Positions 27,938-35,170 of a DNA stretch of 64,000 nt are shown piece by piece. The stretch spans positions 1 through 64,000 of the forward strand of contig NZ_MTAW01000219.1 in assembly GCF_002154725.1 (NCBI RefSeq), read 5' to 3'. How positions within the stretch are numbered: the first letter of the stretch is position 1; every line of letters starts with the position of its first letter. The position numbers and the translations under genes are program-made. Origin of the DNA: Nostoc sp. 106C. GTDB taxonomy: Bacteria; Cyanobacteriota; Cyanobacteriia; Cyanobacteriales; Nostocaceae. Below the pieces are notes generated by a model. That model was not told the origin of the DNA and did not search any database. It saw nothing but the letters and a program-made list of their open reading frames with translations.

Positions 27938-28711
27938 GTTTTAATCCCTGATAGGGATTTTAGTTAATTGCAATTCTATTAGTCTGCGTGGTAGTTCTGT
28001 AAAAAGATATTTAGTTTCAATCCCTAATAGGGATTTTAGTTAATTGCAATATTAGCTTGCAATTGGATAAAGCGTTGCACCATGCGTTTCAATCCCTAAT
28101 AGGGATTTTAGTTAATTGCAATAACACCTGGTTTAGTTCAGACGAAAAATACAAAGAAGTTTCAATCCCTAATAGGGATTTTAGTTAATTGCAATTCTGC
28201 CTCCTGCCTCTCTTACTCATTTAATCAATACAAAGAAGTTTCAATCCCTAATAGGGATTTTAGTTAATTGCAATCACACGAAATCATTGCTGATACCATT
28301 GGTGAAGCAGTTTCAATCCCTAATAGGGATTTTAGTTAATTGCAATTTCGCTGTAAAATTTCGTCCTTCAAATTTAGCTCGTTTCAATCCCTAATAGGGA
28401 TTTTAGTTAATTGCAATTAGGCAATTTAATGTTGTTGAAGACGTACTCTAAGTTTCAATCCCTAATAGGGATTTTAGTTAATTGCAATACTTCCATCTCC
28501 TCCAGTAGTAAAGGAAGAAAAATCAATGTGTTTCAATCCCTAATAGGGATTTTAGTTAATTGCAATTCAACGTCGCTTAATTGAAGCCTTCGATAAAATA
28601 AGTTTCAATCCCTAATAGGGATTTTAGTTAATTGCAATTTCTATAGTTTCTTCTGATTGTTCCCCGTCCTTAGAGTTTCAATCCCTAATAGGGATTTTAG
28701 TTAATTGCAAT
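27938..28711 (-). CRISPR. CRISPR array, 11 repeats and 10 spacers, no adjacent cas genes
   Basis: The 37-bp repeat, read on the plus strand, begins GTTTCAATCCCTAATAGGGA and ends TAGTTAATTGCAAT. Repeats start at 27938, 28014, 28086, 28159, 28238, 28310, 28381, 28452, 28530, 28602 and 28675. The first (27938) differs at two positions (GTTTT and CTGAT); the rest are identical. Spacers are 34-42 bases. On the minus strand the repeat ends in GGGATTGAAAC, giving the usual 5' crRNA handle ATTGAAAC. The degenerate repeat at the low-coordinate end fits a leader at the high-coordinate side. Transcription is therefore inferred to be leftward. The repeat type suggests a type III or I-D system acting in trans. 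Confidence 0.97.
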
Positions 28712-32632: not shown

Positions 32633-33658
32633 TTATTGAGGTACTTGTCCTCGTCCGCCAGTTTGACCGCCAGTTTGACCTCCGGTTTGACCGCCAGTTT
32701 GACCTCCGGTTTGACCACCTGTTTCTCTTCTTGGTGGAGTTACAATATTGCGATCGTCTTCAAATCTCCGCAGTGGGTCATCGGAATTTGTGGTGATACA
32801 GTTAGTTGAGAGTGTACTAGCTCCACTACGAGAATTGAGATTACACAAACCTTCAACCCACACTCTTTGCGTTTCTAATCCTGCTAAGGTTTCCTTTCTG
32901 ACTTTATTGAGGACTACCTGTACATTGGCAGATTCTTGAGATACTAAAGCTTCTTGTCCTGGCCCTAACCCAGCAGCTAGTTGGCTTGTTTGGTAAAACT
33001 TCTGTAAGTCAAAGTTTTGTACTGGACTGATTACCCCATTGCGAATTGTTACTGTTTGACCAGCTTTTAAAATTTGGAATTGAGTGCCGTCCAAATTTGA
33101 TACTTTAACTGGCAGATTGGTTAAATTAAAAGCTTGAGTAATATTAGTTGCGCTGTTATGAGTTACAGCTACGGCGCCACTTGTAGTAGTTGGCGGTAAT
33201 ATATCTGAACCTGGAGGTGGTGCTGCTGCAATTACGTCAATGCGGCTTTGAGGAGTTTCGATTGTAGTTCCCGTACTCCCAGATGGAGTGAGAATTAAGG
33301 CAGTACCATTTCTCAGTTCAAAAATAGTTTCTGCTTTGTAAACACCACCAGGCAATTCAAAGCGACGTATTCCTGGCTTAAAACGAAAGGTAGCACTAGA
33401 ACCAATTCTGGCTAATGAACCTTCATTAAATAATAATTCGGCGCGCGATCGCGATTTTGTCTGAAGTGCATCTAGGGGAACCAACACATCTGCTTTTTTG
33501 GCAGTGCGAGGTGGTTTATTTTTCAGCAGCAATTGCACTTGATTCAACAGCTTGTAAACTTCTGCGCGGGTAAGTAAATCTTGCTGCGCCAATGCTGGAG
33601 TTATCCAAGATGCTGTGAGAATAATCCCCACAATTATATTTTGAGCTAATGATCGCAT
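32633..33658 (-). CDS. FecR-domain exported protein with TGGQ repeats
   Basis: The 341-aa protein has a signal peptide (SLAQNIIVGIILTASWITPALAQ) and then a FecR-like beta domain (about 60-200). Its typical segments are ALQTKSRSRAELLFNEGSLARIG, TFRFKPG and TSGAVAVTH. The C-terminus is a low-complexity tail with five TGGQ units followed by TGGRGQVPQ, encoded by a 12-bp tandem repeat at about 32657-32720. Cyanobacterial FecR proteins of this kind are periplasmic or surface proteins, not true iron-signalling anti-sigma factors. It is upstream of the beta-barrel gene. Confidence 0.8.
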   Translation of the reverse strand: MRSLAQNIIVGIILTASWITPALAQQDLLTRAEVYKLLNQVQLLLKNKPPRTAKKADVLVPLDALQTKSRSRAELLFNEGSLARIGSSATFRFKPGIRRFELPGGVYKAETIFELRNGTALILTPSGSTGTTIETPQSRIDVIAAAPPPGSDILPPTTTSGAVAVTHNSATNITQAFNLTNLPVKVSNLDGTQFQILKAGQTVTIRNGVISPVQNFDLQKFYQTSQLAAGLGPGQEALVSQESANVQVVLNKVRKETLAGLETQRVWVEGLCNLNSRSGASTLSTNCITTNSDDPLRRFEDDRNIVTPPRRETGGQTGGQTGGQTGGQTGGQTGGRGQVPQ

Positions 33659-33971
33659 CTACCACTCCATCACAACTTGAAATAAAAATCCTAAATATAA
33701 TTAGAACATTTGTTCTTAGTTTGATCTACAAATAGCGATCGCCTTTTTCCAGATAACTGTTGTTACGTTTGGTAAATTCCCTAACTGTAGAGGCAGTTTC
33801 AAGTTTTATTGAGCAAAGAAAGCCAGATTTTTCTATATAATTCATACTTGATTTTTGAAATAATTGTACGTACTGCCCACCTGAGCGGGATTTTGCTGGG
33901 TGATGCCTACCCTATATATACTGTTCTCTGTTTACTTTCTATATCTTTTGGTTTCCCTTGCTTTAAGCGTT

Positions 33972-34332
33972 TGTTGCAATTTCTGAGTGTAAATCTACAA
34001 ACAAGTAAAGTTTAGTTTCAAGGCGATCCATCATTATTTAACAGTGCTACTTTAATAATATGAAGCTAATAAAGCTTCCCTGGCAGATACAACAGCCAAG
34101 TAGGTTAAGTCCCAGTTAGTTAAGAGGTAAAAACGCTGTTACATCATCTGTCTCGTCAACTAACAACAACACCCAACTCGAAAGCTAATATTTCCTCAAT
34201 TTGATAAAGAGGGGGTAATACAACTAAAACTTAATTACATTGCGAGGATGTAATTAGTCAGTGTAGCCCCGTGTGTCAAGCTAAAACAGAGGAAATCACT
34301 AGGCAAGTCGTAGCTTGGGTGTTGTTGTTTTT
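33972..34332 (+). ncRNA. Candidate structured RNA / repeat element, copy A
   Basis: This 361-base non-coding element is repeated almost intact at 34446-34804. A core of more than 100 bases from CTTCCCTGGCAGATACAACA to ACACCCAACTCGA is identical in both. Perfect 15-bp arms AACAACAACACCCAA (34162-34176) and TTGGGTGTTGTTGTT (34315-34329) enclose a variable loop that contains a second stem, AATTACAT / ATGTAATT, around TGCGAGG. GTTAGTT / AACTAAC is another possible stem. The right arm runs into TTTTT on the plus strand, which suggests a plus-strand transcript. No known RNA family is recognised. Confidence 0.55.
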
Positions 34333-34445
34333 GGGATTATTTTTTAGATTTAGCTCATCAATAATATAAGTAACTGCTCAATCTGCTAATAATTTTTAGC
34401 TGTATTCTTGTCTATTAATCAAACATCCGACAGAAGTAAAGTAAC

Positions 34446-34804
34446 TGTTGCAGTTTATGAGCGTCAATCTTCAAACAAGTAAAGTTTAGTTTCAAGATAA
34501 ATCTATCATAATTAAATAGTGCTATTTTAATAATTGAAGCTACAAAGCTTCCCTGGCAGATACAACAGCCAAGTAGGTTAAGTCCCAGTTAGTTAAGAGG
34601 TAAAAACGCTGTTACATCATCTGTCTCGTCAACTAACAACAACACCCAACTCGATAACTTATATTTCCTCAATGTGGTAAAGAGGGGGTAGTATAACTGA
34701 AAGTTAATTACATTGCGAGGATGTAATTAGTCAGTGTAGCCCCGTGTGAAAGAAAAAGCAGAGGAAATTACTAAGTAAGTCGCAGCTTGGGTGTTGTTGT
34801 TTTT
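34446..34804 (+). ncRNA. Candidate structured RNA / repeat element, copy B
   Basis: This is the second copy of the element, offset by about 473 bases. The 15-bp arms lie at 34635-34649 and 34787-34801, again followed by TTTT. Differences from copy A fall mostly between stems (for example AGTATAACTGAAAG against AATACAACTAAAAC, and GAAAGAAAAAGC against GTCAAGCTAAAAC), whereas arms and the AATTACAT hairpin are unchanged. That is the pattern expected of selection on structure. The alternative is a recent duplication of a mobile repeat. Confidence 0.55.
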
Positions 34805-35170
34805 AGGAGCAACATTTGTATTATCTGCGATCGCATAATAGATAATCTTCCCCGACAATTCTTTGCCCACAGCTAGTCAATTGATGATGTTTTAAACTGG
34901 CTGCGGAGTCTGAAGGGGTAATTTGACGTTAGCCATCTTGGAAATAGAGCAGAGTTTGTGCATTTATGGCGATCGCTGAAATATTCAGCCTAAACATTAC
35001 GACTTTAACCCTTAACGTTGCAATCTTATGCCTGAAGATTCCGACTTTCAGCCTATCGCATCGCTTGCAATGCTAAAAAATCTCTAGCGAACAGACAGTT
35101 TGGAGACAGTTTTTGTTCTAATGGAAAGCATAGGGTAAGTTTTGGGTACAGAACTATAAGGCTTTAGGTT

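Follow-up and report, generated by a model that had tools for sequence, protein, structure and literature searches.

The window analyzed here, a 64,000-nucleotide (nt) stretch of the genome of Nostoc sp. 106C (contig NZ_MTAW01000219.1, positions 1 to 64,000), carries a structured element in two tandem copies. The original prediction had presented the element as a candidate undescribed noncoding RNA (ncRNA) in a gene-free region. Repeat comparison placed the two copies at about 33972 to 34336 and about 34446 to 34808, with a start-to-start distance of 472 to 475 nt, and the single open reading frame (ORF) of at least 50 amino acids (aa) that reaches the region (68 aa, 33809 to 34015) lies upstream of the RNA proper. 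We propose that the copies are probably a tandem pair of free-standing genes, each for a structured RNA of about 270 nt that is conserved in cyanobacteria and would act in trans as a stand-alone molecule. The features are given below, where P1 to P7 denote the helices of the predicted fold, R1 is a covariance model that was built from 26 sequences of the family (Nostocaceae), and the class is Cyanobacteriia.

34005 to 34020, plus strand: conserved upstream box GTAAAGTTTAGTTTCA of copy 1, resembling an activator site, at a fixed position in the class-level copies
34048 to 34053, plus strand: putative -10-like element TACTTT of copy 1, placed by alignment with homologs
34060 to 34332, plus strand: predicted structured ncRNA, copy 1, from the R1 match, ends approximate
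34062 to 34078, plus strand: P1, 5'-terminal hairpin GAAGC..GCTTC of copy 1
34082 to 34152, plus strand: P2, stem-loop GGCAGAT..AACAGC / GCTGTT..ATCTGTC of copy 1
34124 to 34128, plus strand: Shine-Dalgarno (SD)-like core GAGGT in the P2 apical loop of copy 1
34162 to 34329, plus strand: P3, closing helix of copy 1 (arms 34162-34176 and 34315-34329), enclosing the rod and the variable tip
34190-34197 and 34289-34296, plus strand: P5 within the P3 rod of copy 1
34479 to 34494, plus strand: conserved upstream box of copy 2, from a pattern match
34523 to 34528, plus strand: putative -10-like element TATTTT of copy 2, placed by alignment with homologs
34534 to 34804, plus strand: predicted structured ncRNA, copy 2, from the R1 match, ends approximate
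34536 to 34551, plus strand: P1 hairpin of copy 2
34555 to 34625, plus strand: P2 stem-loop of copy 2
34597 to 34601, plus strand: SD-like core GAGGT of copy 2
34635 to 34801, plus strand: P3 closing helix and rod of copy 2 (arms 34635-34649 and 34787-34801)
34663-34670 and 34761-34768, plus strand: P5 within the P3 rod of copy 2

The two copies are joined by direct repeats of 205 nt at 96% identity, 59 nt at 86%, 51 nt at 90% and 34 nt at 85%. The identical core of more than 100 bases that had been noted earlier corresponds to a longest identical run of 111 nt (starting at 34071 and 34544), and the 15-bp arms AACAACAACACCCAA / TTGGGTGTTGTTGTT, which form P3, are perfect in both copies and run into T tracts at about 34328 to 34332 and about 34800 to 34804. 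The ten helix strands that were compared were identical between the copies, and the aligned differences lay elsewhere, as the original prediction had stated. The internal AATTACAT..ATGTAATT hairpin was likewise found in both window copies; across the family, this segment belongs to the variable tip and not to the conserved structure. Against 200 shuffled sequences, folding stability gave z scores of -4.8 and -5.1 for the two copies. The only other exact repeats of at least 30 nt in the window were a CRISPR array and a short repeat at 32661 to 32716. Model R1 matched copy 1 at 34056 to 34333 (274 bits) and copy 2 at 34530 to 34805 (284 bits). The start at 33972 given earlier probably takes in promoter DNA, with the predicted 5' end of the RNA near 34060, close to the conserved TAATTGAAGC.

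The predicted fold consists, in order, of the 5' hairpin P1, the internally looped stem P2 with a long apical loop, and the closing helix P3 of 13 to 15 bp, which encloses a rod with the short helices P4 to P7 and the variable tip holding the AATTACAT hairpin. In the model-fitted alignment of 85 class-level hits, 36 of the 44 pairs showed two-sided changes, and 93.5% of the cells were paired versus 39 to 54% when slid. Since a model-fitted alignment carries bias, the count was redone on an independent MAFFT alignment, whose structure was derived from 103 rows (83 class-level rows, after two short partial hits had been dropped, and 20 of the 26 family rows). Counted on the 83 class-level rows, 43 of 58 pairs showed two-sided changes and 90.5% of the cells were paired, versus 40 to 47% when slid. 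The compensatory changes proposed as a check on the element were thus present in both alignments, and the stems were conserved in the homologs.

These changes also bear on whether the element could be a miniature inverted-repeat transposable element (MITE) or another mobile element with the inverted arms as terminal repeats. Copy number does vary, tandem copies recur, and partial copies occur on Nostoc plasmids. However, the two-sided changes lie within an RNA fold, the arms are not the ends of the repeated unit (the conserved box and P1/P2 stand outside them), the RNA is linked to a protein gene, c1, in many genomes, the genome of origin has only four full copies, and no phage match was found. 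We consider a mobile element very improbable.

In searches of other genomes, a DNA search found the RNA in 45 of 58 relatives, and R1 matched 169 of 192 family genomes and 174 of 190 in a second, overlapping sample with completeness of at least 99%. In the class, R1 matched at least 166 of 388 genomes under strict filters. All 14 matched genomes in a phylum-wide sample of 49 belonged to the class, and none of the 32 genomes of this sample that came from other classes matched. The four full copies of the genome of origin are the window pair and one each on contigs C212 and C95 (its per-genome count of eight includes weak reverse-strand self-matches, as such counts do generally). A decayed copy that keeps the promoter box lies on the minus strand of contig C237, near 33965 to 34113 (L296). 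The window locus has two copies in this genome and one in each of two other genomes within the stretch examined (G001 and G006). Two or three tandem copies occur in other genomes of the genus, and tandem copies are also found in G108, G100, G125, G037, G509 and G370, with partial second matches near G537 and G363. Partial matches with no listed gene beneath them were found on the Nostoc plasmids NZ_CP151101.1 (L337) and NZ_AP025733.1 (L338). Judged by these sequences, the RNA family has been duplicated repeatedly.

We then compared the upstream regions. A box with the consensus GTAAA(C/G)TTT(A/G)GTTTCA precedes the model start by about 50 nt. Of the 83 class-level copies, 66 carry it with at most four mismatches (shuffled mean, 1.6) and 47 with at most three (shuffled mean, 0.3); in 59 of the 66 it falls within 50 to 54 nt of the model start. 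A -10 element of the form TAxxxT was present at four or more of six positions in 77 of the 83 copies, and a TTGATC-like -35 element could be seen by eye between the box and the -10 in many of them. In the genome of origin the box pattern gave 16 matches, 2 exact and 14 with one mismatch, versus 1 for the control. The exact matches are the two window copies only. One of the 14 is the decayed copy on C237, and inspection by eye of the 200 nt at the other 13 revealed no RNA-like sequence. The full copies on C212 and C95 were missed by the pattern search because their boxes carry three mismatches. On predicted start sites, each window copy appears to be served by a separate promoter that includes a dedicated upstream box.

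To compare the element with known RNAs, we searched it against Rfam 15 (4,227 covariance models). No model matched at its gathering threshold, and relaxing the cut-off to E values up to 10 gave four minus-strand hits that scored far short of gathering. In 14 of 80 class-level loci searched in the same way, nothing matched over the RNA, and one weak mir-8 hit (E = 0.048) fell outside it. The earlier statement that the element could not be matched to 6S and several other known RNAs therefore stands against Rfam. The 6S RNA (RF00013) gene of this genome lies at a separate locus (G000:C240). Together with the covariation and the promoter box, these results give good support to an undescribed structured ncRNA.

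Like 6S RNA, the element would be a rod-shaped, stand-alone bacterial RNA a few hundred nucleotides long. Its 3' domain with asymmetric loops, and a gene with its own promoter, could suggest that it is another RNA of the 6S type, with the long rod as the binding site for RNA polymerase. However, it has no match to the 6S model at gathering or at E values up to 10, the genome has its 6S gene elsewhere, 6S RNA is not known to have an equivalent of the P1/P2 domain, and the element differs from 6S in its multiple and tandem copies. A 6S-like role therefore seems improbable.

A literature search, including one with four sequence words of the RNA, found no description that could be tied to it. PMC4734099 describes two Northern-verified small RNAs of Nostoc sp. 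PCC 7120, 2462444f (258 nt) and 268249f (340 nt), whose induction by nitrogen limitation is reported to require neither NtcA nor HetR. Of 27 heterocystous genomes, 24 have a homolog of the former and 18 of the latter, and the paper gives homologs only in heterocystous genomes. These two RNAs could be members of the family, and 2462444f is close in size to our RNA of about 270 nt. Unlike both, as they are described there, our RNA also occurs outside Nostocaceae, which counts against identity or else reflects the BLASTn search of that paper. Relatives of the element may already be listed, unnamed, among the predicted PCC 7120 small RNAs of PMC4734099. Tandem small-RNA gene copies in heterocystous cyanobacteria are also described for NsiR1 in the part of PMC3610870 consulted; unlike NsiR1, our RNA is about 270 nt long and lies at other loci. 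Like Yfr1 and Yfr2 it is a widely conserved cyanobacterial RNA, although the excerpts consulted give 54 to 57 nt for Yfr1 (PMC4734099) and about 80 nt for Yfr2a (PMC2662882), and no Rfam family matched here. The same excerpt of PMC2662882 describes several copies of Yfr2 per genome and argues that Yfr2 is more than a leader of downstream genes.

The question of a leader also arises for our RNA. In addition to the class-wide promoter box and an SD-like loop, the analysis revealed a link beyond the original prediction, to the gene c1, which encodes a conserved protein of 256 aa and lies at C95:36382-37149 (L085) in the genome of origin. A Pfam scan of c1 gave Nuc_deoxyrib_tr below the cut-off, NCBIfam gave no match, a profile search of the Protein Data Bank (PDB) gave none and a single-sequence search only chance-level hits, and the AlphaFold model was poor (mean pLDDT, 54). 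The gene was found in 225 of the 388 class genomes; 135 had both the RNA and c1, 31 the RNA only, 90 c1 only and 132 neither (odds ratio, 6.4, uncorrected for ancestry).

Adjacency was taken from 150 listed RNA matches and the listed c1 matches, which are part of all matches. Among them, the RNA lies upstream of c1 on the same strand, at a distance of at most 700 nt, in 66 of the 95 genomes with both; no opposite-strand RNA occurs within 3 kb of c1; and 29 of the 95 have no listed copy adjoining c1. This arrangement would be expected if the RNA were chiefly a cis-acting 5' leader of c1, such as a riboswitch or attenuator, and the free-standing copies were by-products or decoys. In addition, many c1 loci carry a GTTTTAAA-like tract between the closing helix and the c1 start, and 29 of the 67 listed adjacent hits end at most 34 nt from c1, so that a cis role is still conceivable. 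Such short gaps could be taken as proof of cotranscription, but a -10 element lies inside the RNA gene.

This internal element, TAGAAT/TACAAT-like and just 3' of the CUCC strand, was present at five or more of six positions in 29 of 44 c1-adjacent copies versus 8 of 64 others, and at four of six in 33 of 44 versus 21 of 64, with adjacency assigned by hand, three partial hits dropped, kinship uncorrected, and copies whose c1 was not located counted among the others. When the regions upstream of c1 were searched in 40 of the 90 c1-only genomes, none held a full match to the RNA and one held a marginal partial match; one of these regions (L309) spans only 88 nt at a contig end, and its letters resemble the 3' end of the RNA. 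By eye, several c1-only genomes (L300, L304, L319, L323 and L327 among them) keep a stretch like the 3' part, with the internal -10, without the 5' part of the RNA. Because of the enrichment of the internal -10 and the c1-only upstream regions, the RNA gene probably contains a separate promoter for c1, and the RNA itself is probably not simply a leader of c1. Furthermore, c1 had no match in 31 of the 166 class genomes that carry the RNA, and copies distant from c1 retain the promoter and the fold. We therefore regard a chiefly cis-acting leader as unlikely. The window copies themselves are free-standing by their sequence context: no c1 homolog lies within 5 kb of them, and the internal -10 motif is absent from both (copy 2 in the count, both by inspection).

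We also examined the apical loop of P2. Among the 85 class-level copies, 83 have an SD core in this loop, GAGGU in 63 and AAGGAG in 20, and the remaining two loops read GAGAGGA and AAGGGGU. When class and family were combined, 102 loops could be parsed from 111 rows, and 99 of them had at least 5 nt of SD complement (shuffled mean, 26.8; maximum, 42). Both loop forms are complementary to one 16S-type tail, and this tail, GGCTGGATCACCTCCTTT, was found in five of the six genomes searched. An intramolecular switch between the loop and P5/P6 found no support in the P5/P6 strands, which did not clearly differ from one loop form to the other.

An SD-like loop could also start a short peptide at a nearby CUG. 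The distance from CTG to CTG is divisible by 3 in 25 of the 26 family sequences. However, of the 85 class-level sequences, the 75 that have both anchors are spread over the three frames (38, 33 and 4), and an ATG, GTG or TTG stands about 4 to 13 nt away in only 17 of 101 loops. A coding leader peptide was rejected because the frame is lost in the class-level sequences, and a peptide-encoding role is highly implausible. We infer that the loop has been selected for anti-SD pairing; selection by a purine-binding protein or for pairing with a CU-rich partner is less likely.

Under the trans-acting reading, the RNA would be made as a stable molecule, and extra copies would raise its dose. We further suggest, tentatively, that the P2 loop may pair with the 16S anti-SD tail, that the RNA may dock in this way on free 30S subunits, and that docking could tune translation initiation when the RNA promoter is on. 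Somewhat more doubtful is a fuller scheme in which an SD without a start codon, displayed in a hairpin loop, docks on the anti-SD of free 30S subunits as a dosage-tuned regulator or a store of initiation capacity, while in many genomes the gene also hosts the promoter of the neighboring conserved protein gene.

Several observations weigh against this reading. Transcription and transcript size are predictions from sequence. The upstream box is absent at up to four mismatches from 17 of 83 class-level copies. The short gaps to c1 count in the same direction, as do the 15 of 44 c1-adjacent copies that lack the internal -10 at the cut-off. For docking, the evidence is complementarity, and the loop could also have been selected by a CU-rich partner RNA or a purine-binding protein; the draft genome that contains the window gave no match to the 16S-tail pattern; and in the 17 loops mentioned above a start codon is present at a roughly suitable distance.

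The family, its fold, the conservation of the box, the repeated duplication and the frequent siting upstream of c1 with an internal -10 are evident from the sequence comparisons. The strongly covarying RNA, about 270 nt long and preceded by a conserved promoter box in many Cyanobacteriia, lacks an Rfam entry and is an unassigned component of a much-studied group. If docking is true, it would be an unusual RNA that exposes an SD without a coding function. The one to three tandem copies within one genus offer natural comparisons of dosage, and with the covariance model the RNA can be located in transcriptomes that already exist.

Elsewhere in the window, the CRISPR array (27938 to 28711, minus strand) contains 11 repeats matching Rfam CRISPR-DR5, and an ORF at 32633 to 33658 on the minus strand has a sub-threshold FecR match and a GGQT tandem repeat near its C terminus. 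In the genome of origin, AAATATGTAAAGTTTTGTATCAGCATTCAACATTTCTG is common to four contig ends (L284, L288, L289 and L290) and is probably the end of an insertion sequence.
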